Shown: positions 4,183 through 16,944 of the stretch, piece after piece | How the letters are laid out: each line of letters starts with the position of its first letter | Position numbering within the stretch: the stretch's first letter is position 1 | Assembly: GCF_006543045.1 (NCBI RefSeq) | Contig: NZ_RBZW01000004.1 | Coordinates: forward strand, 1 to 39,634 | DNA: 39,634 nt | Source of the DNA: Salinadaptatus halalkaliphilus | GTDB lineage: Archaea > Halobacteriota > Halobacteria > Halobacteriales > Natrialbaceae | Direction of reading: 5' to 3' | Made by a program: the position numbers and the translations under genes | Notes under the pieces: generated by a model | Told to the model about the DNA's origin: nothing | The model's input: the letters and a program-made list of their open reading frames with translations, nothing else | The model's database searches: none

Positions 4183-4478
4183 ACTGTCGTCGGTCTACGG
4201 AGTCGAGTTGCTTGAAGCTCCTGTCTCTCCGAACGGGCGACGCGACGAAAGTACCGATTGCCGTCGGATAACGCCTACCTACTCGTGTACGTTGGGCCTC
4301 GAGATCTACCCCAATATATACTCCCGCCTTGTGTCGGCTCGCGACGGCCCGCCTGTACGGTTCGGTTCGCGTTCTCGACTGCCAATAATGCCGCTACACG
4401 CATGCAGAACCGTTCTCAGTCGGGAGGAGCCGTCTGGACGTTACACTATGTGGAAGCCACAATCCGACACTGTAGACA
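4183..4478. other. Intergenic region upstream of nirK
   Basis: 296 bp between the divergent DHH gene and nirK. It holds no convincing ORF. There is an AT-rich TATA-like stretch (CCAATATATACT, about 4310-4321) far from the nirK start and a short inverted repeat AGAACCGTTCT at 4406-4416. No match to the CGAA-N4-TTCG motif found at other promoters of the island was seen here. Confidence 0.5.
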
Positions 4479-5585
4479 ATGACTCCGATCAACCATCCCC
4501 GACGGCGGTTCTTACAGACGATGGGTGCGACCGGCGTGTTGGCGGTTGCTGGCTGCCTTGAGGGAGACGCCAGCGAGGAATCGAACGAGGCGGAGACGGA
4601 CCAAAACGAGGGTGGCGACGACGGGTTGCCACCAGCCGAGACGCCCGACATCGAGACGATCGCTGCCGATCCGACCGATGTCCCGGATCCGGTCGATTGG
4701 AACGAGCCCCGCACACACGAGTGGCACATCCAGACCGAAGAGCACGTCGCCGAGATCGAACCCGGCGTGACGACGCGGTTCATGACGTTCGAGGGGCAGG
4801 TTCCCGGCCCGTTCTACCGGTGTCGCGTCGGCGACACCATCCGATTGACCTTCGATGTCCCCGAGGAGTACAACGCGGATCTCCACAACATCGACTTCCA
4901 CGCGGTCTACGGACCGGGTGGCGGTGCGGTCGATACGACCATCGCACCCGGCGAGGGCGAGGAGACGATCGAGTTCACGACGAAGTACCCGGGTGCACAC
5001 ATCTACCACTGTGCACCGGGCAATCACGACCAGCACATCAGCCTGGGGATGTTCGGCACCATCCTCGTCGAACCCGAAGGCGGGTTACCCGAGGTCGACC
5101 GCGAGTTCTACCTGGGCCAGCACGAACTCTATCTCGACGGTGAGACGGGCGAGGACGGCCACCACACCTTCGACTTCGACGAAGCGGCCACTGAAAACCC
5201 GACCTACGTCCTCTTCAACGGCGAGGTCGGCCGGTTCGCCGACGGTGGTGAGGAAGGACCGCTCCACGCCGAAGTCGGCGAGACCGTCCGGGTGTTCTGG
5301 TGTAACGGCGGCCCCAACCTCCTCAGCGGACCCCACCCGATCGGCAACGTCTGGTCGAAGTGGTATCGAGACGGCGACGTCCTCTCGGATCCGGCCCAGT
5401 ACGTCGAAGGCAGCGCCGTTCCAGCGGGCGTCACCGCGATCGGCGAGATGGAGATGGAAGTCCCAGGCCCGATCACGCTGGTCGATCACGCGCTGAGCCG
5501 CGTCGTCCAGAAGGGACTGATCGCCCACATCGACGTCGAGGGCGAGCCAAACCCAGATGTCTTCAACCCCGATCCGGAGCCGTAG
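4479..5585 (+). CDS. nirK: Copper-containing nitrite reductase NirK (Tat lipoprotein)
   Basis: A 368-aa protein. It starts with a twin-arginine signal (RRRFLQTMGATG) and a lipobox-like AVAGC, so it is exported and lipid-anchored. Two cupredoxin domains follow. Domain 1 has HNIDFH (H136 type 1 Cu, D139 catalytic Asp, H141 type 2 Cu) and HCAPGNHDQHISLGM (H177 type 2; C178, H186, M191 type 1). Domain 2 has GGPNLLSGPHPIG (H286, catalytic His position) and LVDHALSR (H337, third type 2 ligand). All NirK ligands are therefore present, which excludes a laccase-type multicopper oxidase. It reduces nitrite to NO outside the membrane. The next gene, 41 bp downstream, is a cupredoxin and a likely electron donor. 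Confidence 0.9.
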   Translation: MTPINHPRRRFLQTMGATGVLAVAGCLEGDASEESNEAETDQNEGGDDGLPPAETPDIETIAADPTDVPDPVDWNEPRTHEWHIQTEEHVAEIEPGVTTRFMTFEGQVPGPFYRCRVGDTIRLTFDVPEEYNADLHNIDFHAVYGPGGGAVDTTIAPGEGEETIEFTTKYPGAHIYHCAPGNHDQHISLGMFGTILVEPEGGLPEVDREFYLGQHELYLDGETGEDGHHTFDFDEAATENPTYVLFNGEVGRFADGGEEGPLHAEVGETVRVFWCNGGPNLLSGPHPIGNVWSKWYRDGDVLSDPAQYVEGSAVPAGVTAIGEMEMEVPGPITLVDHALSRVVQKGLIAHIDVEGEPNPDVFNPDPEP

Positions 5586-5626
5586 AACCAGCGACCCAGC
5601 CGACCCGTCCCTTCCACACCATTCCC

Positions 5627-6223
5627 ATGACCCACACACGACGCCGGACGCTCGAGGTCGCGACAACGGCTAGTATCACGGCACTCGCCGGCTGTCTCGG
5701 CGGTCGCGACGCAATCCGGCGCGGAGGCGACGATGGCGATCCCGGTTCGCCGGAGGGCTCGAGCGGCGACGGCACGCTCGGTGACCCCGCCGCTGCCGTC
5801 GAGGTGACCGTCGTCACGCGTCCGAGCCCGCAGTTCGAGCCGGGACTCGTCCACGTCGAACCCGGTGGCACCGTCCGGTGGCTCGTCGAGGGCCCTCGAC
5901 ACGACGTGACAGCCTACCACTCGGATGTCGATCGACCCCAGCGAGTTCCCGACGGGACCGACGCCTTCGAGAGCGGACTGCTCCGGGAGGGCCACGAGTT
6001 CGAGCACACGTTCGACGATCCCGGCGTCTACGATTACGTGGATACGCGCCGACTCTGTGGCTCCCACGAGGCCCTCGGTGCTGTCGGCCGCGTCGTCGTC
6101 GGTTGGCCGGAGCTCGAGACCGAACCCGCACTCGAGCACGACGTTTCGGGGCTCCCGAGTCGCGCCGAAACCGTCATGGCGGCGTACGACGAGCGAACCC
6201 GCGAGGCACTGGCGGAAGTGTGA
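5627..6223 (+). CDS. Halocyanin-like cupredoxin with an altered type 1 copper site
   Basis: A 198-aa protein with a Tat signal and lipobox (RRRTLEVATTASITALAGC), a Gly/Asp/Ser-rich linker and a plastocyanin-like domain (about residues 65-165). Copper ligand positions RHDVTAYH and LCGSHEALGAVG supply His, Cys and His. The residue five after the second His, normally the axial Met (EALGMVG), is Ala. A ~30-residue tail follows. Position 41 bp after nirK in the same direction suggests it passes electrons to NirK or to the CuA subunit downstream. ATG 5627 was chosen because the signal peptide follows at once; the open frame continues upstream into nirK without coding sense. The altered site may shift the redox potential. 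Confidence 0.85.
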   Translation: MTHTRRRTLEVATTASITALAGCLGGRDAIRRGGDDGDPGSPEGSSGDGTLGDPAAAVEVTVVTRPSPQFEPGLVHVEPGGTVRWLVEGPRHDVTAYHSDVDRPQRVPDGTDAFESGLLREGHEFEHTFDDPGVYDYVDTRRLCGSHEALGAVGRVVVGWPELETEPALEHDVSGLPSRAETVMAAYDERTREALAEV

Positions 6224-6480: not shown

Positions 6481-7944
6481 ATGACATATCACTTCGACCG
6501 ACGACGGTTCAGCACCCTCCTTGTCGGCACGGCGATCGCGGCGTACGTACTGATCGCACTCGGGACGGCGACCTCGACGACGGCGAGTGCAAGCACCTGT
6601 ACGACGTGGCCAAGCTGTTCGACCGGCTGGACGGTCGGCCCGCTTACGAGTGGCGACCTGCTGTTCTGGGGCCACCGGGCCGTCGCGCTCGTGACCGGCC
6701 TCCTGCTCGCAGCGGCCGCGGTCGGCGCGTGGCGTCTCGCGGTCGACCGGCGAATCGCGATTCCCCTCTGGCTCGCCGTTGCACTGTATCCCGTGCAGGT
6801 GGCATTCGGCGCGGCGATCGTCGTCGCCGGCTCGACGCGTGCGAGCGTCGCCCACCTCGCACTCGCGATGGTCATCTTCGCCAGCCTGCTCGTCGCACTC
6901 GTCGTCACGCTCGAGGAAGATGCAGCAGCCGACGAGTCTCGAGCGACGCATCCGGCGGTCCGCGACGGCGGTGTCGACCTGAATGGAGGCGACAAACCGA
7001 ACGCGGCATCCGAACCGGCGTCCGCTACGACCGATTCGTCACCGACGCTCGCCACGGGTGGGTTCGCCCGACTTCGGCAGGTCGCCGGCGCCTACCTCAC
7101 GCTCACCAAGCCCAAGCTGATGTGGCTGCTCTGTCTCGTCGCGGTCGCCGGGATGGGGCTGGCGACGCTGACCGGCGAGTCGGTCGAACTCGGCGTCGTG
7201 GTCGCGACGCTGGTCGGCGGGGTCCTCGCGATCGGTGCCAGCGGGACGTTCAATCACGTTTACGAGCGCGACCGCGACCGGAAGATGGACCGCACGAGCG
7301 ATCGGCCGCTCGTCCACGATCTCGTGCCCGTTCGCAACGCCGTCGCGTTCGGCGCGGCGCTTGCGGTCGGGTCGGTCGCGATCGTCGCCGCGTGGGTGAA
7401 CCTCCTCGCGGCGGCGCTGACGTTCGCGGCGATCCTCTACTACGTCGTCCTCTATACGATCGTCTTGAAGCCGAACACGGCCTGGAACACCGTCCTGGGC
7501 GGCGGCGCCGGCGCACTCCCGGCGCTCATCGGCTGGGTCGCCGTGACCGGCAGCGTCGGCCTCCCGGCGCTCGTCCTTGCGGGCGTGATCTTCCTTTGGA
7601 CGCCGGCGCACTTCTACAGCCTCGCGATCGCCTACCGCGACGACTACGCTCGCGGCGGCTTCCCGATGTTCCCCGTCGCCCGCGGCGTCCTCGCGGCTCG
7701 TCGACACGTCATGCTCTACCTGGGTGCGACGTTGCTCGCGGCGAGCCTGCTCGGCTGGGTCGCCGGCCTCGGGTGGCTCTATGCCCTCACGTCGATCGCG
7801 CTCGGGGCCGTCTTCCTTCGCTCGGTCGTCCGCCAGTACCGCACCGAGAGCGACGACGCCGCCCTCCGGTCGTTCTACGTCTCGAACTACTACCTGGGTG
7901 CGATCCTGGTCGCGATCGTCCTCGAGACGTTCCTCTTTGCCTAA
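6481..7944 (+). CDS. ctaB: Heme O synthase (protoheme IX farnesyltransferase) with CtaA-like N-terminal domain
   Basis: A 487-aa polytopic membrane protein. Residues ~1-150 form a four-helix half-CtaA-like unit (WGHRAVALVTG and VAHLALAMVIF carry the His residues). A hydrophilic linker follows, then the UbiA-type prenyltransferase from LTKPKLMWLLCLV. The catalytic motifs are NHVYERDRDRKMDR and the second Asp-rich loop AYRDDYARGGFPMFPV. It farnesylates heme B to heme O for heme-copper enzymes. ATG 6481 follows 257 bp of non-coding DNA; the open frame upstream to 5878 overlaps the cupredoxin gene and is not coding. Its presence in the island fits supply of heme O/A to the oxidoreductase at 10660-13003. 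No separate full CtaA is in the window. Confidence 0.92.
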   Translation: MTYHFDRRRFSTLLVGTAIAAYVLIALGTATSTTASASTCTTWPSCSTGWTVGPLTSGDLLFWGHRAVALVTGLLLAAAAVGAWRLAVDRRIAIPLWLAVALYPVQVAFGAAIVVAGSTRASVAHLALAMVIFASLLVALVVTLEEDAAADESRATHPAVRDGGVDLNGGDKPNAASEPASATTDSSPTLATGGFARLRQVAGAYLTLTKPKLMWLLCLVAVAGMGLATLTGESVELGVVVATLVGGVLAIGASGTFNHVYERDRDRKMDRTSDRPLVHDLVPVRNAVAFGAALAVGSVAIVAAWVNLLAAALTFAAILYYVVLYTIVLKPNTAWNTVLGGGAGALPALIGWVAVTGSVGLPALVLAGVIFLWTPAHFYSLAIAYRDDYARGGFPMFPVARGVLAARRHVMLYLGATLLAASLLGWVAGLGWLYALTSIALGAVFLRSVVRQYRTESDDAALRSFYVSNYYLGAILVAIVLETFLFA

Positions 7945-8355: not shown

Positions 8356-9123
8356 ATGAGGGATACGTCACGAGCCGTCGACAGGCGAACGGTCCTCCGG
8401 TCGACAGCAGTTGCTGGCCTCGTTGGCGTCGCCGGGTGTACCGGCCTCGGCGAGGATGGCAGCGACGAGGTCGTCCTCCCGCCGCCGGATGGGTACGATC
8501 CGGATGTCGCCGCAGCGACGGTCCACCCGACCTACGGCGAGGCGGTGCCGGAACTCACCGCGCCGGATCCGATTCGGGACGTGACGGTCACGACTACCGA
8601 CTTCGTCGGCGAGCGCCACACGCTCTACACCTACGTCTTTACGCGCTGTCCGAGCGCCTGTCCCGGCCTGGTCGGGAACCTCCGACACGTCCAGGACGAT
8701 TCCGTCGAGTCGAGCTACGCCGACGACGTAGCGCTCCTGAGTGTCACGTTCGACCCGGCACACGACACCGCCGACGTGCTCGAGGCCTACGAGGACGACC
8801 ACGGCGTCGACCGGAACGCGAACAACTGGTACTCGCTGCGTCCCGAGACTCCGGCAGACGCTCAGACGGTCGTCGAGGGGGGATTCGGCGTCGCGTTCGA
8901 AGAAACCGAAAGCAACGATCACGACGAGGACAACTACGAGGGCGACGGCGAGAACGGCCACGACGAGGACGACCACGATCACGAGGACGACATGGCGTTT
9001 GCCCACACCAACCTCGTGTTGTTCGTCAACGCCGGCGGCTACGTCGAACGCGCCTATCAGGGCGAGGTTCCCACGCCCGCGGATGTCCTCGAGGACGTCC
9101 AGACGGTTGTCGAGGGGTGGTAA
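8356..9123 (+). CDS. SCO1/SenC family copper chaperone (Tat lipoprotein)
   Basis: A 255-aa protein. The N-terminus has a signal of Tat character (DRRTVLRSTAVAG) and lipobox VAGC. The thioredoxin-fold SCO domain carries CPSAC (C98, C102) and the third copper ligand His in FAHTNLVLF (H217). A strongly His/Asp/Glu-rich insertion (about residues 187-214) precedes that His and may add metal binding. SCO proteins deliver copper to the CuA site of subunit II, here encoded at 10660. The TlpA-like gene begins two bases after the stop, so the pair is cotranscribed and probably works together: the thioredoxin would reduce the cysteines for metallation. Confidence 0.92.
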   Translation: MRDTSRAVDRRTVLRSTAVAGLVGVAGCTGLGEDGSDEVVLPPPDGYDPDVAAATVHPTYGEAVPELTAPDPIRDVTVTTTDFVGERHTLYTYVFTRCPSACPGLVGNLRHVQDDSVESSYADDVALLSVTFDPAHDTADVLEAYEDDHGVDRNANNWYSLRPETPADAQTVVEGGFGVAFEETESNDHDEDNYEGDGENGHDEDDHDHEDDMAFAHTNLVLFVNAGGYVERAYQGEVPTPADVLEDVQTVVEGW

Positions 9124-9124
9124 C

Positions 9125-9658
9125 ATGCGACGGCGTGACTGCCTCGCTGGGGTCGCCGCAGTCGGCGCGAGTGGTATCGGTGCCGCCTACGCCCTCGGCG
9201 GCATCGACCGGTTCGGCGACGACGGTATCGACTCGTTCGAACTCGAGACCCTCGCGGCGCCCGGTAGCGAGGCCGGAATGGCGACCGTCCCGGAGCCGGG
9301 CCGGGTGACGTTTCTCGAGTTGTTCGCGACGTGGTGTGACGTCTGCGAGCGATCGATGCCGGCGAAAGGCGACGCGTACGAGACGGTCGAGGATCGGGAC
9401 TGCCAGTTCGTCTCGGTCTCCAACGAGCCGATCGGCAACACGGTCACCCGCGACGACGTCGCCGACTGGTGGGCGACCCACGACGGCCGCTGGCCGCTGG
9501 CGATCGACGACGACCTCGAACTCACGGCGGCCCTCGACGCGACGGGCGTCCCCTACGGGTTCGTCCTGGACGAGGCCAACGTCGTCACGTGGTCCCATCG
9601 CGGCGAGACGGCGGCCGACGAGCTACGCGAGGCGCTCGAGCGACAGCTGTCGAAGTAA
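9125..9658 (+). CDS. TlpA/ResA-like thioredoxin, exported
   Basis: A 177-aa protein with an N-terminal signal (MRRRDCLAGVAAVGASG) and a thioredoxin-like domain holding WCDVC (C71, C74) after ELFAT, plus the cis-Pro region ATGVPYGFVLDE. This is the extracytoplasmic thiol-reductase type used in cytochrome c and CuA maturation. It follows the SCO gene by one base and precedes ccdA by 59 bp, giving a coherent SCO-TlpA-CcdA set in which CcdA relays reductant across the membrane, TlpA carries it and SCO inserts copper. The start at 9125 is fixed by the tight junction and the signal peptide. Confidence 0.87.
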   Translation: MRRRDCLAGVAAVGASGIGAAYALGGIDRFGDDGIDSFELETLAAPGSEAGMATVPEPGRVTFLELFATWCDVCERSMPAKGDAYETVEDRDCQFVSVSNEPIGNTVTRDDVADWWATHDGRWPLAIDDDLELTAALDATGVPYGFVLDEANVVTWSHRGETAADELREALERQLSK

Positions 9659-9717: not shown

Positions 9718-10380
9718 ATGACCGGTGAACTCCTCGGCGCGGCGACGTTCGCGTTCGCGATGGGAGTGACGACGTTTTTCTCCCCGTGTTCGTACGCGCT
9801 CTTGCCGGGCTACGTCGGCTACTACGTCTCCGCGACCGGCCAGGAGACCCCGCCGCTTGGCGGTGCTTTCGCTCGTGGCCTCGCGGCGGCGGCTGGTGCC
9901 GTTACCGTCCTCCTCGCGCTCTCGGGCGTCGCACTCGTCGCCGGCGAAGCCCTCGAGCGAACGCTGCCCACGCTCGAGTACGGCGTCGGAGTCGCGTTGA
10001 TCGCCGCGGGCGGGTGGATTCTCTATAACGGTCCGGGTGCCGTCCACGCCATGTTACCGAAGCGGCGAGCGAGCGTCTGGGGCTTTTGCGTGTTCGGTGC
10101 GATGTACGCCGTCGCGGCGACGGCGTGCGTGTTACCGCTGTTTCTGGGCGTCGCGCTACAGTCGATGACCATGCCAGGCCACGAGGCGGCGCTCGTGCTC
10201 GGGGCGTACGCCGGCGGCTTCGGGGCGTTGATGGTGTCGGTCACCGTCGCGACGGCAATCGGTCACAGCCTCGGCGCCAGCGTCCTGTCGGGACACGTGG
10301 ATCGACTCGTCCGTCTCGGTGGCCTGGCGTTGGTTCTCGCCGGCTTCGGTCAACTCTACGTCGCGTTCGCGATGGCGTAA
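9718..10380 (+). CDS. ccdA: CcdA/DsbD-type transmembrane thiol reductant transporter
   Basis: A 220-aa protein with six predicted membrane helices. The family motifs are present: FSPCSYALLPGYVGYY in helix 1 and the second cysteine region AVAATACVLPLFLG in helix 4, giving the two redox cysteines. CcdA moves electrons from cytoplasmic thioredoxin to outside thiol proteins such as the TlpA-like protein encoded just upstream. ATG 9718 was picked because the first helix begins directly after it. It ends the SCO-TlpA-CcdA gene set. Confidence 0.9.
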   Translation: MTGELLGAATFAFAMGVTTFFSPCSYALLPGYVGYYVSATGQETPPLGGAFARGLAAAAGAVTVLLALSGVALVAGEALERTLPTLEYGVGVALIAAGGWILYNGPGAVHAMLPKRRASVWGFCVFGAMYAVAATACVLPLFLGVALQSMTMPGHEAALVLGAYAGGFGALMVSVTVATAIGHSLGASVLSGHVDRLVRLGGLALVLAGFGQLYVAFAMA

Positions 10381-10505: not shown

Positions 10506-10655
10506 ATGACGACCACAGATTCCGGCGCGGAGATTCCGTTCATGCAACGGTTGTACAACCGTATCTGGCTCCTGGCGGTGGCATCGCTCGTGTTCTTTGC
10601 GGTGTCGTACGTCGCCTGGGGGCTGATCGACGTGCTCACGCTACCGACGGTGTAA
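10506..10655 (+). CDS. 49-aa single-helix membrane peptide of the heme-copper oxidoreductase operon
   Basis: Short frame MTTTDSGAEIPFMQRLYNRI followed by one membrane helix (WLLAVASLVFFAVSYVAWG) and a short tail. An in-frame ATG at 10494 would add four residues. It ends 4 bp before subunit II and shares its promoter region. The position recalls the small cbaD subunit that precedes subunit II in the Natronomonas pharaonis ba3 oxidase operon (order D-B-A-C), so it is probably a small structural or assembly subunit. Homology to CbaD cannot be shown from this length. Confidence 0.7.
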   Translation: MTTTDSGAEIPFMQRLYNRIWLLAVASLVFFAVSYVAWGLIDVLTLPTV

Positions 10656-10659
10656 GACA

Positions 10660-11202
10660 ATGACGTCACCAATCAAACCGCCCGAAGGAAACTGGTGGGA
10701 TCAACCCGTCAACAGACGTGAATCGATCTGGCTCGGTCTCGGCGTCGGCTGGGCGCTCGTCCTGTTCGGGTGGATGAGCGCGTTCACCCGGATCGGCGAC
10801 CAGAACCCGATCGGCGAGACCTATCGCGTGACCAGCGAGGAGTTACAGGAACGGGTCGACGAATTCGAGGCGGCCGCCGAAGAACGCGACGACGGCGCGC
10901 TCGTCCCCGCCGGCGACGACATCTACGTCGTCGGCTACCAGTTCGACTGGGACGGCCTCCCGGTGGTCCTCGAGACGGGTCGGGAGTACGACTTTCATCT
11001 CGGCTCCTACGACGTGCAACACGGCTTCTCGATCCGTCCGGAACACGCCTACAGCCAGCAGATCAACTTACACGTGACACCGGGCAAGGAGTGGGTCGTC
11101 CCGATGGAGTTCGACGAACCGGGCACGTACCACGTGCTCTGCAACGAGTTCTGTGGCGAGGGCCACAGAGGCATGCACAATACGATCATCGTGGAGGACT
11201 AA
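10660..11202 (+). CDS. Heme-copper oxidoreductase subunit II with CuA site
   Basis: A 180-aa protein with one N-terminal membrane helix (WLGLGVGWALVLFGWMSAF) and an outside cupredoxin domain. The complete binuclear CuA set is visible: H121 in VQHGFS, then CNEFCGEGHRGM with C161, E163, C165, H169 and M172. The short length and single helix are typical of B-type (ba3) subunit II. It accepts electrons from a soluble or lipid-anchored cupredoxin, plausibly the protein encoded at 5627, and passes them to subunit I, whose ATG lies one base after this stop codon. Confidence 0.93.
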   Translation: MTSPIKPPEGNWWDQPVNRRESIWLGLGVGWALVLFGWMSAFTRIGDQNPIGETYRVTSEELQERVDEFEAAAEERDDGALVPAGDDIYVVGYQFDWDGLPVVLETGREYDFHLGSYDVQHGFSIRPEHAYSQQINLHVTPGKEWVVPMEFDEPGTYHVLCNEFCGEGHRGMHNTIIVED

Positions 11203-11203
11203 C

Positions 11204-13003
11204 ATGAGCCACGCACTCGACGTCTTCGGCTGGTTCGACAACGAGTACGACGGGGAGGGGTTCCGAACCTGCTCGGTGACCAGTTTCGACGTCCATCGCT
11301 CCGTCGAAAACTACGTCAAACTGTACGGCGTCACCGCCGTCGTCTTCCTGCTGATCGGCGGCATCTTCGCGTTCACAATCGCGATGACCCGCTGGGAAGC
11401 CATCGGCCTCCTCGAGCCCGGCGACTACTACCGCCATCTGAGCATGCACGCCTGGAGTATGCTGATCTTCTGGATCATCTTCATGGAGATCGCCATCCTC
11501 TACGTTGGCGGGCCGATGGTCCTCGGCCGCAAGCTGCCCGCAAAGTGGGCGGCAGCGGCCGGCTACGTGGTCATGCTCGCCGGGTCGGTCTTGATCTACT
11601 ACTCGATCTGGACGGTTTCGGGCGATCCGACCTCGGACAACGCGCCGCTGTTGACGGCCTATGTCCCCCTCGAGATCAATCCCCTGTTCTACGTGTCGGC
11701 GATCGTCTTCCTGATCGGCGTCACCTTAGCCGCGTTGCCGTTCCTGCTGACGCTCTGGGACGAAAAGCGTGAGAACCCGGGGAAGACGCTGCCGCTTGTC
11801 ACGTTCGGTGCCTTCGTCGCCGCGATCATCGCCGTCCAGTCGATTCTCGGCGGACTGATCGCGTTCGGCGGGGCCCTGGCCTGGCAGCTCGGCTACGCTC
11901 CCTGGTTCGACGCCAGCATCTACCGACAGTGGTTCTGGATCATCGGCCACGGCACCCAACAGATCAATCTCGTGGCGATGATCGTCGTCTGGTATCTCGT
12001 GACCCACGTCATCGGCGGTGCCGAGGTCGTCAGCGAGAAAGTCTCTCGGACGGCCTTCATCCTCTATCTGTTCTTCATCGTGATGGGGGCTGCCCACCAC
12101 CTGATGGTCGATCCCGGCCTGTCGGCCGGCTGGCGCATCTGGAACACCTCCTACGCGTTCTACGGGGCGACGTTCGCGAGCCTGATCCACGCCTTTACGA
12201 TCCCGGCCGGCCTCGAGGCGGGTCGACGCAAGCGCGGGAAGGGCGGCGGCCTCTTCGGCTGGCTGACCTCCGCGCCGTGGCGGAACCCGGTCTTCGCGAG
12301 TTCGATCTTCGCGATCATCCTCTTTGGGTTCCTCGGCGGAATCACCGGCGTGCTCATGGGCCAACTCCAGCTCAACATGAGCTGGCACAACACGTTCGCG
12401 ACGGTCGGTCACTTCCACAGCACGGTCGTCCTCGGGACGACGCTGACGTTCATGGGCGTCGTCTACTTCGTGATCCGGACGATGTTCATGCGCGAGTTCG
12501 TCTCGCCGAAGCTGACGACGCTGCAGCCCTACCTCTACAGCGGCGGCATGGCGCTGACGGCGCTGATGATGATGTACGTCGGCATCCTCTATGGCATCCC
12601 GCGCCGCACCGCTGAGGTCGTCGAGAACATCCCCGGCACCGACTTCAGCATCGCCGGCGCCGCGCCGCTTTTCGACGTCTTCGGACTCGTCGCTATCTTC
12701 GCCATCGGCGGCGGGGCCTTGTTCGTCCTGCTCGCCGTCGGCTCGCTACTCTTTGGCGATCGTATCGAACCGGGCGACGGCGACCTCGCCCCGGACGGCG
12801 GGAGCACGACACAGCAGGCCACCGACAGCCGGACGATTGCGCCGCGAAACGACCTCGAGCAGGCCGAGGACCCGGACGATCCGGTCCACGCCTACGAGAT
12901 GCGGGGCACGTTCGTCCTGTGTCTCATCTTCCTCGCCGTCTTCGTCGTCGCGTACATCCTGAACTGGTTCCTGCTCACCCAGCTGTGGTCGATCGGCGCG
13001 TGA
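11204..13003 (+). CDS. Heme-copper oxidoreductase catalytic subunit I, putative CuA-type NO reductase (eNOR-like)
   Basis: A 599-aa protein with about 13-14 membrane helices. Metal ligands are all present: H82 in SMHAW (low-spin heme), H249 in IIGHGTQQ (CuB), H298 and H299 in AAHHLMVDPG (CuB), H403 and H405 in VGHFHS (active-site heme and low-spin heme). The residue four after H249, the cross-linked Tyr of O2-reducing A/B-type oxidases, is Gln253. Loss of that Tyr is known from NO-reducing members of the superfamily; as I recall, the eNOR family has Gln there and a CuA subunit II. Linkage to nirK supports NO reduction to N2O. The alternative is an unusual ba3-type oxidase. A long charged loop (about 530-570) precedes the last helix. 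Confidence 0.85.
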   Translation: MSHALDVFGWFDNEYDGEGFRTCSVTSFDVHRSVENYVKLYGVTAVVFLLIGGIFAFTIAMTRWEAIGLLEPGDYYRHLSMHAWSMLIFWIIFMEIAILYVGGPMVLGRKLPAKWAAAAGYVVMLAGSVLIYYSIWTVSGDPTSDNAPLLTAYVPLEINPLFYVSAIVFLIGVTLAALPFLLTLWDEKRENPGKTLPLVTFGAFVAAIIAVQSILGGLIAFGGALAWQLGYAPWFDASIYRQWFWIIGHGTQQINLVAMIVVWYLVTHVIGGAEVVSEKVSRTAFILYLFFIVMGAAHHLMVDPGLSAGWRIWNTSYAFYGATFASLIHAFTIPAGLEAGRRKRGKGGGLFGWLTSAPWRNPVFASSIFAIILFGFLGGITGVLMGQLQLNMSWHNTFATVGHFHSTVVLGTTLTFMGVVYFVIRTMFMREFVSPKLTTLQPYLYSGGMALTALMMMYVGILYGIPRRTAEVVENIPGTDFSIAGAAPLFDVFGLVAIFAIGGGALFVLLAVGSLLFGDRIEPGDGDLAPDGGSTTQQATDSRTIAPRNDLEQAEDPDDPVHAYEMRGTFVLCLIFLAVFVVAYILNWFLLTQLWSIGA

Positions 13004-13064: not shown

Positions 13065-13778
13065 ATGACAAACACGAACGCTTCCGACGGTTCCCAGCCC
13101 GGCTACGTCCGGCGAACGCTGCGTCAGGCCTGGCGCGACCTGTTGAGTGTCTACTACGCCAACACGACGATCTGGCGCTACCTGAAAAGCGGGGCGTTGC
13201 TCTGGTTCGGCCTGATGATCTGGGCGTTCTCGAACTTGCTGCTGTCCTATCGCCCGGAGTGGACCGTATTGTACGTCGTGATGGCCTACGGGTTCGTCCT
13301 CGTGCTCTGGGGGCCGCTCACCCACTTCGTCGTCGTCCCGCTCGTGATCCGGCTCCGCCGGGAGGGCGACTCGTCGCTCGCCCGAACGGTCGCTCGCCAC
13401 GGCTCCAAGCTCAACCTCACGGTGTTTTTCACCATCGTGATCCTGCTCGCCGCGTTACCGTTCGGCCCGATGGTCCTCGAGTTCCAGCCCGGCGCGGTCA
13501 CCGACGGCGACGACAGTCCCTCGCCCACCGCCGACCTCGAGTGTGTGATCGACGACGACGTGGTCCAGTGTGCACTCACCGACGAGGTGGGCTACGACCA
13601 CGTCGCGGTCATGAGCGACGGCGAGGATATCATGATCGTCACCGACCCACCCTACGCGTTCGAGCTCGAGGCCGACGACCACGACCAGTTCGTCGTCGAA
13701 CTGCGTGACGAAGACGGCGCGATGCTCGATCGGTTCGTCGAACGTACTGCCGGCCTCTCCGAGGCCGAGACGAGTTAG
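13065..13778 (+). CDS. Membrane protein of unknown function in the oxidoreductase operon
   Basis: A 237-aa protein. An N-terminal amphipathic part (TLRQAWRDLLSVYYANTTIW) leads to three or four membrane helices (WFGLMIWAFSNLLL, VLYVVMAYGFVLVLWGPL, FFTIVILLAALPFGP). An outside domain rich in Asp/Glu follows, containing LECVIDDDVVQCALTD with two cysteines 10 residues apart. The two Cys could form a disulfide or bind metal. It begins 61 bp after subunit I in the same direction, in the position of cbaC in the N. pharaonis operon, though it is longer than I would expect for CbaC. An accessory or assembly role is inferred from location only. Confidence 0.8.
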   Translation: MTNTNASDGSQPGYVRRTLRQAWRDLLSVYYANTTIWRYLKSGALLWFGLMIWAFSNLLLSYRPEWTVLYVVMAYGFVLVLWGPLTHFVVVPLVIRLRREGDSSLARTVARHGSKLNLTVFFTIVILLAALPFGPMVLEFQPGAVTDGDDSPSPTADLECVIDDDVVQCALTDEVGYDHVAVMSDGEDIMIVTDPPYAFELEADDHDQFVVELRDEDGAMLDRFVERTAGLSEAETS

Positions 13779-13800: not shown

Positions 13801-13914
13801 ATGATGTCCGACACCACGGTCGACCGACGACGGGACGACGGTTCGGAGAGCCGATACGCCGACCGAACGGCCGACTTTCGCCGTCGATTCGACGGCGGGG
13901 GTGAGCGACGATGA
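13801..13914 (+). CDS. 37-aa basic peptide translationally coupled to the copper ATPase gene
   Basis: Short frame MMSDTTVDRRRDDGSESRYA, then a polar Arg-rich end (RTADFRRRFDGGGERR). Its TGA (13912-13914) overlaps the ATG of the ATPase (13911), the ATGA junction typical of coupled haloarchaeal genes. That and the absence of other explanations for the spacing support it; there is no recognisable domain. It could serve only to deliver ribosomes to the ATPase start. Confidence 0.45.
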   Translation: MMSDTTVDRRRDDGSESRYADRTADFRRRFDGGGERR

Positions 13915-16400
13915 CCACGTGTACGCTCTGTGAGCTGCCGGTGTCGGACGACCCCGTGACGGCCGCGGGCGTCGACGGTACCTTCTGCTGTCGGGGCTGT
14001 CTCGAGATCAACGAGGCCCTCGCGGATGTCGAGGGCCTCGAGCAGACGGATCTCGAAGCGCCGACCGACGAATCGACCGACCGGACGGTCCCCGAGGACG
14101 CCGAGGAGACGTTTCTCACCATCGATGGGATGCATTGTGGGACCTGCGAGGGCTTTCTCTCCTTGCTCGGCGAGCGTGAATCCGGGATCATCGAACTCGA
14201 GGCCAACTACGCGACGGATACGGCCCGCGTGGTGTACGACTCCGAGGTGGTGTCACGGGAGGAGCTACCGACACAGCTGTCCGGACACGGATACAGCGCC
14301 CGGTTCCCGGACGAGGAGGGCGACACGCGTCGGCGAGACGACGCCATCATGCAGCGGCTGGTGATCGGCGCCATCATGACGCTACTGATCAAGCCGTGGT
14401 ACCTGTTCTTCCTCTATCCGAGCTACGTGGGGATCGAGACGGGGATCTTCGAGGTCGACGCGACCACCGTCTTCGGGATGTACTTCCCGCTGGTGATGAT
14501 CGCGCTGATGACGACCGTCGTGCTGGTCGTCACGGGCTATCCGATCCTTCGGGGCGCCTACGTCAGTCTTCGGGTCGGCCAGCCGAACATGGACCTCCTG
14601 ATCGCGATCGCCGCCGTCGCGGCCTACGCCTACAGCACGGTCGCGCTCGCGATGGGGAGCACCCACCTCTACTACGACGTTACCGTCGCCGTCGTCATGG
14701 TCGTCACGATCGGCACCTACTACGAGCGCAACGTAAAACAGCGAGCGACCGATCGCCTCTCCGAACTAACCGCCGCTCGAGCCCGCGAGGCGACCCGACG
14801 CACGGCCGCGGGCACCGAGACGGTGTCGGTCGAGGACCTCGAGCCGGGCGACGAAGTGCTTGTCCGGCCCGGGGACCGGGTGCCGATCGACGGCACCGTG
14901 CTCGAGGGGACCGCGGCGGTCGACGAGTCGGTGCTGACGGGCGAGTCCCTCCCGGTCACGAAAGGCGTCGGCGACGACGTCGTCGGCGGTGCGATCGTCA
15001 CCGACAACGCGCTCGTCCTCGAGGTCGGTGCGGACGCCCAGAGCACGCTCGATCGAATCGCGACGCTGCTGTGGGAGATCCAAAGCGCCACGCCGGGGAT
15101 CCAGCGCTTTGCCGACAAACTCGCGACGATCTTCGTCCCGCTGGTGGTTACCATCGCGACGATCGTGACGGCGTATCACCTCCTGACGGGTGCGCCGATC
15201 GCCGACGCGTTGTTGGTCGGACTGACCGTCCTGGTCGTCTCCTGTCCCTGCGCGATGGGGTTGGCGACCCCGCTCGCGGTCGCGTCGGGACTTCGAGATG
15301 GCCTCGAGCGCGGGATCGTCGTCACCAACGTCGCGCTGTTCGAATCCGGCCCGGACGCCGACACCGTCGTCTTCGACAAGACGGGGACGCTCACCGAGGG
15401 CGAGATGGAGGTCCTCGAGACCGCTGGCGAGACCGACGCGATCCGAAAGGCCGCGGCCGTCGAACAGTTCTCGGCGCACCCGGCCGGGGCGGCGCTCGTC
15501 GACTTCGTCGACAGCGGACTCGAGTCGGACACCGATCGAGGCGACGGCGACCCGGTGGCGACCGACGGCGGAATCGCGACGGCAGCGCCCGCGGGCGGCG
15601 AACACGTCACCGCCGAGCCGACCGACTTCGAGCGCCATCCCGGCGAGGGAGTCAGCGCCGTCCTCGAGGGCAAACGGGTCGTCGTCGGCACGCCGACACT
15701 CGTGGAGCGACTCGTCGGTCCCGTTCCCGGCGACCTTCGCGAGACCGTCGACGCGGCCCACGAGCGCGGGCGGCTCCCCGTCGTCGTCGGCTTCGACGGC
15801 CGCGCTCGAGCGGTCGCGGTCGTCGGCGATCGGGAACGCGACGAGTGGCGCGAGGTTTTCGAGCGCGTCGAGGATACGGAGGTCGTCGTCCTGACTGGCG
15901 ACGACGAAGCTGCTACCGCGAGCTTCCGGGACCATCCGGCGGTCGATCGCGTCTTCGCCGGCGTTCCCCCGGACGGAAAAGTCGAGACGATCCGACGGCT
16001 GACCGGGACCGGTGTGACGACGATGGTCGGCGACGGCACCAACGACGCGCCCGCGCTTGCGGCCGCCGATGTCGGCATCGCACTCGATACCGGCACCGCT
16101 CGAGCGGCCGATGCGGCCGACGCCATCGTCACGAACGGGTTGGACGACGTTCGGGCCGTCTTCGACCTCGCGAGCGGCACGCGCCGACGGATTCGCGAGA
16201 ACGTCTGCTGGGCGCTGTTGTACAACGCGGTCGCGATCCCGCTGGCGGCGCTTGGCCTGATCAACCCGCTGTTTGCCGCCCTCGCGATGGCGGCGAGTAG
16301 CCTCATCGTGGTCAAAAACTCTTCGCGTCCAGTGCTTCGAGAGGCCACGACTCGCACTCGTGAATCGACAACCACACGACCCGGTTCAGAGAACCCATGA
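13911..16400 (+). CDS. Copper-type P1B-ATPase (CopA/CcoI-like)
   Basis: An 829-aa protein. The N-terminus has a Cys-rich metal-binding domain (CTLCELPVSDD, then FCCRGC) of the type found in CcoI/FixI oxidase-assembly ATPases. An HMA domain with GMHCGTC follows at about residues 74-80. Eight membrane helices, the CPC translocation motif (SCPCAMGLATPL, ~443), phosphorylation motif DKTGTLT (D~489), the nucleotide-domain HP (SAHPAG) and GDGTNDAPAL (~706) are all intact. It exports Cu(I), most likely to metallate CuA/CuB and NirK rather than only for detoxification, given the genes around it. Start and coupling to the 37-aa ORF are fixed by the ATGA overlap. Confidence 0.93.
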   Translation: MTTCTLCELPVSDDPVTAAGVDGTFCCRGCLEINEALADVEGLEQTDLEAPTDESTDRTVPEDAEETFLTIDGMHCGTCEGFLSLLGERESGIIELEANYATDTARVVYDSEVVSREELPTQLSGHGYSARFPDEEGDTRRRDDAIMQRLVIGAIMTLLIKPWYLFFLYPSYVGIETGIFEVDATTVFGMYFPLVMIALMTTVVLVVTGYPILRGAYVSLRVGQPNMDLLIAIAAVAAYAYSTVALAMGSTHLYYDVTVAVVMVVTIGTYYERNVKQRATDRLSELTAARAREATRRTAAGTETVSVEDLEPGDEVLVRPGDRVPIDGTVLEGTAAVDESVLTGESLPVTKGVGDDVVGGAIVTDNALVLEVGADAQSTLDRIATLLWEIQSATPGIQRFADKLATIFVPLVVTIATIVTAYHLLTGAPIADALLVGLTVLVVSCPCAMGLATPLAVASGLRDGLERGIVVTNVALFESGPDADTVVFDKTGTLTEGEMEVLETAGETDAIRKAAAVEQFSAHPAGAALVDFVDSGLESDTDRGDGDPVATDGGIATAAPAGGEHVTAEPTDFERHPGEGVSAVLEGKRVVVGTPTLVERLVGPVPGDLRETVDAAHERGRLPVVVGFDGRARAVAVVGDRERDEWREVFERVEDTEVVVLTGDDEAATASFRDHPAVDRVFAGVPPDGKVETIRRLTGTGVTTMVGDGTNDAPALAAADVGIALDTGTARAADAADAIVTNGLDDVRAVFDLASGTRRRIRENVCWALLYNAVAIPLAALGLINPLFAALAMAASSLIVVKNSSRPVLREATTRTRESTTTRPGSENP

Positions 16401-16575: not shown

Positions 16576-16944
16576 ATGAGCAGTGAAACCGACGAGAACG
16601 GGTTACGACTCACAGTGGCGGTGCCGGACGAAGAGACGGCGCTCGAGCTCACCGAAACCGTCGACGAGGTGCTCGATATCAGCGTCGAGGACGGCTCACC
16701 AGTCGAGCACCCGCGTCAGTCGGCGATCGCCGTCGATATCGGTACGTTGACGCCAAAACAGTGGAAAGCCCTGAAATTAGCCTACGACGGCGGCTACTAC
16801 GACCAGCCACGCTCGACCGATCTCGAGACGATCGCGGCGGAGCTCTCGATCTCGAAGTCGGCGGTATCACAGCGCCTTCGGGCCGCTGAGGCCACTATCG
16901 TCGAAGGTGTCCTGGAGGGAATCCGGGCTCGAGCCGAGAGCTGA
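16576..16944 (+). CDS. Short bacterio-opsin-activator (Bat) type HTH regulator
   Basis: A 122-aa protein. Its C-terminal half is the HTH_10 domain of Bat-family regulators: LTPKQWKALKLAYDGGYYDQ, then STDLETIAAELSISKSAVSQ and RLRAAEATIVEGVL. The N-terminal ~55 residues (LRLTVAVPDEETALELTETV) are too short for the PAS/GAF sensor usually present. It lies 175 bp after the copper ATPase in the same direction, a gap in which no gene was found. The NarO regulator of haloarchaeal denitrification belongs to the same broad family, so this is a candidate local regulator of the respiratory island. That link is inference. It has no Cys cluster for an iron or redox centre. Confidence 0.85.
   Translation: MSSETDENGLRLTVAVPDEETALELTETVDEVLDISVEDGSPVEHPRQSAIAVDIGTLTPKQWKALKLAYDGGYYDQPRSTDLETIAAELSISKSAVSQRLRAAEATIVEGVLEGIRARAES

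Follow-up and report, generated by a model that had tools for sequence, protein, structure and literature searches.

A CuA-bearing heme-copper enzyme encoded near nirK in Salinadaptatus halalkaliphilus is a likely eNOR-type nitric oxide reductase

A two-gene locus of the haloarchaeon Salinadaptatus halalkaliphilus encodes a CuA-bearing heme-copper enzyme with the ligands of a ba3 oxidase and a glutamine in place of its active-site tyrosine, which raises the question of whether the enzyme reduces oxygen or nitric oxide. The window analyzed is the whole stretch of 39,634 nucleotides from assembly GCF_006543045.1 (contig NZ_RBZW01000004.1, positions 1–39,634, forward strand), and all genes located within it below are on the plus strand. 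The initial annotation had placed the enzyme at 10506–13003; this span does enclose both subunits, but positions 10506–10659 are intergenic and subunit II starts at 10660.

Active site and CuA domain of the subunit pair

Subunit I (11204–13003, 599 amino acids) was assigned as the heme-copper catalytic subunit by a PF00115 match (198 bits), alignment, phylogeny, and Foldseek. The six metal ligands claimed in the initial annotation, H82, H249, H298, H299, H403, and H405 (numbered from the ATG at 11204), are all present. The claimed substitution was also borne out: helix VI reads WIIGHGTQQIN, and residue 253 of the motif H249-G-T-Q252-Q253 (11948–11962; codon 253 at 11960–11962) is Gln at the position of the cross-linked Tyr, a residue that the oxygen-splitting cycle requires. 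When 46 Gln-type proteins were aligned with 21 B-family oxidases (20 haloarchaeal and one from Thermus thermophilus), position 253 was Gln in 46/46 and Tyr in 21/21, and position 252 was Gln in 46/46 and Val in 21/21. Since every one of the 46 homologues, which span haloarchaea, Chloroflexi, Spirochaetota, Myxococcota, and Planctomycetota, carries Gln253, the residue is neither a chance substitution nor a sequencing error, and a local mutation was ruled out. Q252, I254, N255, H329, E95, Y288, and Y317 were likewise invariant in the 46 Gln proteins and absent from the 21 B-family members; Q252, N255, H329, and Y317 appear to be further family-specific residues near the active site or the K-type proton path.

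The roles of K-path residues are established for ba3 oxidases. When Thermus ba3 numbering was mapped through an alignment in which helix VIII carries a gap of one residue, Y264 corresponded to Tyr248, S326 to Ser309, and E21 of subunit II to Glu15, the K-channel entry Glu, all of them kept, and Thr312 of the Thermus K channel was replaced by His329. By sequence comparison, E21 of subunit II and Y264, S326, and H329 of subunit I are all invariant in the eNOR proteins. The AlphaFold model had a mean pLDDT of 76.9 and a pTM of 0.79, and Foldseek returned Thermus ba3 oxidases as the closest solved structures, as the fold is shared.

Directly upstream lies the gene for subunit II (10660–11202, 180 amino acids), which comprises one transmembrane helix and a CuA cupredoxin domain. 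The CuA site is complete, as had been stated, with H121, C161, E163, C165, H169, and M172 as ligands and the motif C161-NE-F-C165-GEG-H169-RG-M172 encoded at 11140–11175. Each of the six ligands is conserved without exception (23/23 relatives), and subunit II is matched best in the PDB by Thermus ba3 CuA domains (E ∼4e-15).

Family placement and relation to known enzymes

A scan of genome contigs recovered 27 loci, and a class-wide search of haloarchaea found 32 genomes with relatives of at least 59% identity, separated by a clear gap from ba3 homologues at ∼32%. In a maximum-likelihood tree of 75 heme-copper proteins, in which the B-family branch is almost entirely haloarchaeal, the 34 sampled Gln proteins formed one clade (SH-aLRT 100) sister to the B-family clade (SH-aLRT 94) and apart from the A, C, and NOR-like groups. 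Alignment and tree, the check proposed at the outset, thus place subunit I beside and not inside the O2-reducing B-family. The clade includes members from Chloroflexi, Spirochaetota, Myxococcota, and Planctomycetota, and because the closest relative of subunit I outside the archaea is a Chloroflexi protein (49% identity), gene transfer between a Chloroflexi lineage and haloarchaea is suggested by these sequences.

A Rhodothermus eNOR was reportedly shown biochemically by Murali in 2024 to reduce NO, and the family is said to have been treated by Hemp and Gennis in 2008. The published diagnostic for eNOR is a Gln at the Tyr position together with a cupredoxin subunit II encoded upstream (PMC8756737); the same work records eNORs from Natronomonas and further Halobacteria, many of them mislabeled as cytochrome oxidases. 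The prediction that standard annotation would misname the present enzyme agrees with this, its homologues being labeled “b(o/a)3-type” or “cbb3-type” oxidase. With the diagnostic Gln, the upstream CuA subunit II, the separate clade, and the linkage to nirK, the reading of the locus as an eNOR-like NO reductase is supported, and the pair at 10660–13003 is, with high probability as judged from sequence, a haloarchaeal eNOR, a CuA-bearing NO reductase of the heme-copper superfamily. It shares with the family the six conserved His residues, the Gln, the cupredoxin subunit II, an occurrence in Halobacteria, Chloroflexi, and Proteobacteria, and a NirK neighbor as in the eNOR-NirK operon of Ardenticatena (PMC4653789). 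The haloarchaeal branch differs in having its own small membrane protein (13065–13778) and copper and heme maturation genes; no difference excludes membership. As eNOR, its Gln diagnostic, its occurrence among Halobacteria, and operons that pair it with NirK have been published, and the class is already applied in genome annotation (PMC12569097, PMC13274419), the enzyme of the window extends a known family by one member. New here are the haloarchaeal eNOR-nirK linkage and the disagreement with a survey of denitrification in these archaea, according to which haloarchaea have no NOR class other than qNOR (PMC8400030). No published activity was found for any haloarchaeal eNOR.

With B-family ba3 oxidases (T. 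thermophilus 1EHK and haloarchaeal CbaA) the enzyme has in common the fold, the ligands, the one-helix CuA subunit II, and the K-path Glu, Tyr, and Ser equivalents, but it lacks the cross-linked Tyr, has His329 for Thr312, shows only ∼31 to 32% identity, and falls in a separate clade. Haloarchaeal qNOR (NorZ) belongs to the same superfamily and is likewise predicted to convert NO to N2O; in qNOR, however, a single fused chain includes a cytochrome-c-like domain (PF22085), quinol is the electron source, and CuA is missing, whereas eNOR is a two-subunit CuA enzyme. The Bacillus CuANOR (bNOR), an NO reductase, also receives its electrons through CuA but, as contrasted by published listing, has Asn at the active site (PMC8756737 Table A4) where eNOR has Gln, and cNOR combines an active-site Glu with a cytochrome c subunit (NorC), in contrast to the Gln and CuA subunit II found here. 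Identity with the ba3 oxidase purified from N. pharaonis in 1997 was also considered and ruled out, as that enzyme is NP_2966A, the product of cbaA, which has an orthologue in Haloferax volcanii (PMC8305020). A second N. pharaonis pair, coxA3/coxB3 (NP_4296A/NP_4294A), is described as related to Thermus ba3 (PMC8305020), and we infer that it is the Natronomonas eNOR.

Gene neighborhood and co-occurrence with nitrite reductases

Upstream of the pair, nirK (4479–5585) encodes a 368-amino acid AniA-like copper nitrite reductase with a lipoprotein-type N terminus (TIGR02376, 328 bits versus a cutoff of 296; AniA-type NirK match in the PDB, E = 1e-73) in which the copper-ligand and catalytic motifs NIDFHA, YHCAPG, QHISLGM, GPHPIG, and VDHA are present. 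The adjoining gene (5627–6223) encodes a halocyanin-like blue copper lipoprotein of 198 amino acids (PF00127 above cutoff) that is kept beside eNOR in several relatives and is the likely electron donor to eNOR. The presence of nirK and the halocyanin in the window, not remarked on in the initial annotation, is the strongest functional evidence for the NO reductase reading. Between these genes and the pair lie a CtaA-like/CtaB fusion for heme O/A synthesis (6481–7944; TIGR01473, 296 bits; PF02628 slightly below cutoff), which shares the genome with one other full-scoring ctaB copy, and three genes that are syntenic in relatives: a SCO1/SenC copper chaperone for CuA assembly (8356–9123; PF02630), a TlpA/ResA-like thioredoxin (9125–9658; PF08534, NF002854), and a CcdA-like multi-transmembrane protein (9718–10380) named by context, having no family match. 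Downstream, the small membrane protein noted above (237 amino acids, ∼3 transmembrane helices, no family match) lies 3′ of subunit I in most haloarchaeal loci examined (35–67% identity) and has no counterpart in the bacterial loci examined, making it a candidate haloarchaeal accessory subunit. It is followed by a Cu-type P1B ATPase for copper supply or efflux (13911–16400; TIGR01511/TIGR01525 above cutoff; syntenic, on a varying strand) and by an HTH_10 regulator of 122 amino acids (16576–16944; PF04967) that possibly regulates the eNOR cluster. Natronoglomus and Natronobiforma (L008 and L009) have almost the same order, ctaAB-nirK-halocyanin-sco-tlpA-ccdA-II-I-orf3-ATPase, with the ATPase on the opposite strand, and in a Chloroflexi locus (L021) nirK and ctaAB likewise adjoin the eNOR gene.

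Across 194 haloarchaeal genomes, of which 103 have nirK, the gene was found in all 32 eNOR carriers versus 71/162 noncarriers (Fisher p = 1.6e-10, uncorrected for phylogeny), and the pattern held within the family of the window's own species (18/18 carriers versus 9/32 others, p = 4e-7). In 13 of the 32 carriers nirK is within 10 kb of eNOR. PF14537 proved a poor proxy for qNOR, and PF22085 was used instead; by this marker qNOR is present in 21 carriers and absent in 11, in which eNOR is the only recognized NOR. Of the 103 nirK genomes, 27 are without qNOR, and eNOR is present in 11 of those 27. NosZ is absent in 17/32 carriers, and over the 194 genomes the association of eNOR with NosZ was weak (p = 0.06) and that with qNOR not significant (p = 0.08). 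Among nine bacterial genomes or metagenome-assembled genomes with an eNOR gene, NirK or NirS was found in seven and both were undetected in two metagenome-assembled drafts. On T. thermophilus plasmids, an eNOR-like pair annotated as ba3 or cbb3 oxidase adjoins nirS or a NirK-like multicopper oxidase, an Rrf2 regulator, and a DUF542 protein; strain NAR1 has the same pair and no norCBH, and use of NO has been speculated on independently (PMC7694296).

In the plasmid-borne eNOR-like subunit I genes of four T. thermophilus strains (L134:8983-10668, L137:2983-4668, L138:83-1768, and L139:6025-7707) the product reads GHFK, placing Lys at the low-spin heme axial His (H405), where every other sequence inspected has GHFH or AHFH; the four proteins retain the remaining ligands and the QQ motif.

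Competing readings and proposed nitrogen oxide chemistry

A true O2-reducing oxidase would have to draw its active-site Tyr from elsewhere, with Y317 of helix VIII or Y288 of helix VII replacing that of helix VI. Helix VII does supply the active-site Tyr of cbb3 oxidases, both candidate tyrosines are invariant in 46/46 proteins and missing from the B-family, all metal ligands and the K-type path are kept, the nearest folds are Thermus ba3 oxidases, and the homologues are annotated as oxidases. The position that we take to be that of the cbb3 Tyr (six residues before the His of helix VII), however, is Ile in subunit I, the protein lies outside the O2-reductase clade, and the association with nitrite reductases is strict. 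The genome moreover encodes a separate aa3 oxidase (HPEVY) and a separate ba3 oxidase (HPVVY), both with Tyr, so the eNOR gene is not needed for O2, and we regard an oxygen-reducing function as very improbable. Still less credible, to the point of being negligible, is the reading of Gln as a degenerate mutation in a decaying, functionless ba3 paralogue: the substitution itself is all that speaks for it, and it is refuted by conservation, given the intact frame, a motif invariant across bacteria and archaea, and the kept gene cluster.

A bifunctional NO/O2 scavenger, serving mainly low-oxygen NO detoxification and not respiration, deserves more weight and is nonetheless unlikely. It would fit the co-occurrence of qNOR in most carriers, where eNOR may do something additional, the frequent lack of NosZ, and the truncated pathway of the S. 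halalkaliphilus genome, in which NarG and NosZ were not found by the models used (TIGR01580 and TIGR04244). Against it, a respiratory, energy-coupled role is indicated by the CuA site, the K-type path, the halocyanin, and the maturation genes for heme and copper, and in 11/32 carriers eNOR is the sole recognized NOR. This genome also carries nirK a second time, on a different contig, and has no PF22085 match anywhere; with NirK present and qNOR, NosZ, and NarG absent by these models, it is predicted to convert nitrite to N2O. Contig C41 of this genome also carries, on the minus strand (L004:490-2046), a gene for a 518-amino acid membrane protein that matches COX1 weakly (6.5e-4) and is possibly NnrS-like or heme-copper-like.

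For the eNOR itself, family membership and the nirK neighbor make conversion of NO to N2O very probable. In the proposed scheme, the coencoded NirK would reduce nitrite to NO, and the halocyanin-type copper protein would feed electrons to CuA of subunit II, from which, by ligand homology, they would reach the heme (H403)-CuB (H249/H298/H299) center by way of the low-spin heme (H82/H405). At that center two NO molecules would be joined to give N2O and water, with the invariant Gln occupying the place of the cross-linked Tyr. Protons would arrive from the cytoplasm through the remodeled K-type path (E21 of subunit II; Y264, S326, and H329 of subunit I), so that NO reduction may be electrogenic. 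Tentatively, and with slightly more doubt than conviction, we propose that a good number of haloarchaea, which surveys would class as stopping at NO, have as their sole respiratory NO reductase a proton-coupled CuA eNOR of this kind instead of qNOR, its K-type path remodeled around the invariant H329 that replaces Thr.

Where qNOR is held to be the only haloarchaeal NOR (PMC8400030), species with NirK alone are counted as NO emitters; the eNOR carriers among the qNOR-less nirK genomes (11/27) are expected to make N2O, a greenhouse gas, rather than emit NO. Annotation of the gene as a ba3 or cbb3 oxidase, in turn, makes aerobic respiration look more frequent than it is and leaves N2O production unnoticed. 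A clean setting for studying an eNOR is offered by culturable archaea that lack qNOR; Halobiforma nitratireducens gave no PF00115 match of the qNOR type, and Natronobiforma cellulositropha (L009/G104) has no PF22085 match.

Further redox proteins were also noted. In Halobiforma nitratireducens (L006:1853-3715, minus strand), a NirS-like cytochrome d1 propeller (PF02239, E = 8e-72) is fused to an N-terminal CuA-type cupredoxin (YECTLYCGDGHAQM) that replaces the cytochrome c domain. The fusion, also seen in G004, G005, G025, G034, G049, G085, G091, G092, and G144, occurs in 9/194 haloarchaea, eight of them eNOR carriers, lies ∼2 to 6 kb from eNOR in L006, G085, and G144, and is possibly a CuA-d1 nitrite reductase. 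In Myxococcales and Planctomycetota genomes (L027, ∼4590–6210; L028, ∼4230–6000), a second, divergent heme-copper-like membrane protein (∼24% identity) is encoded upstream of eNOR subunit II, with GGGHVLQVA or GGGHILQVA and PAHYHA motifs and no HH pair. Two Planctomycetota genomes (G201 and G202; L102 and L103) encode NOR-like heme-copper proteins (DYVVGHAHLALFG, GAHHYLFSP) alongside eNOR and beside several further heme-copper genes.
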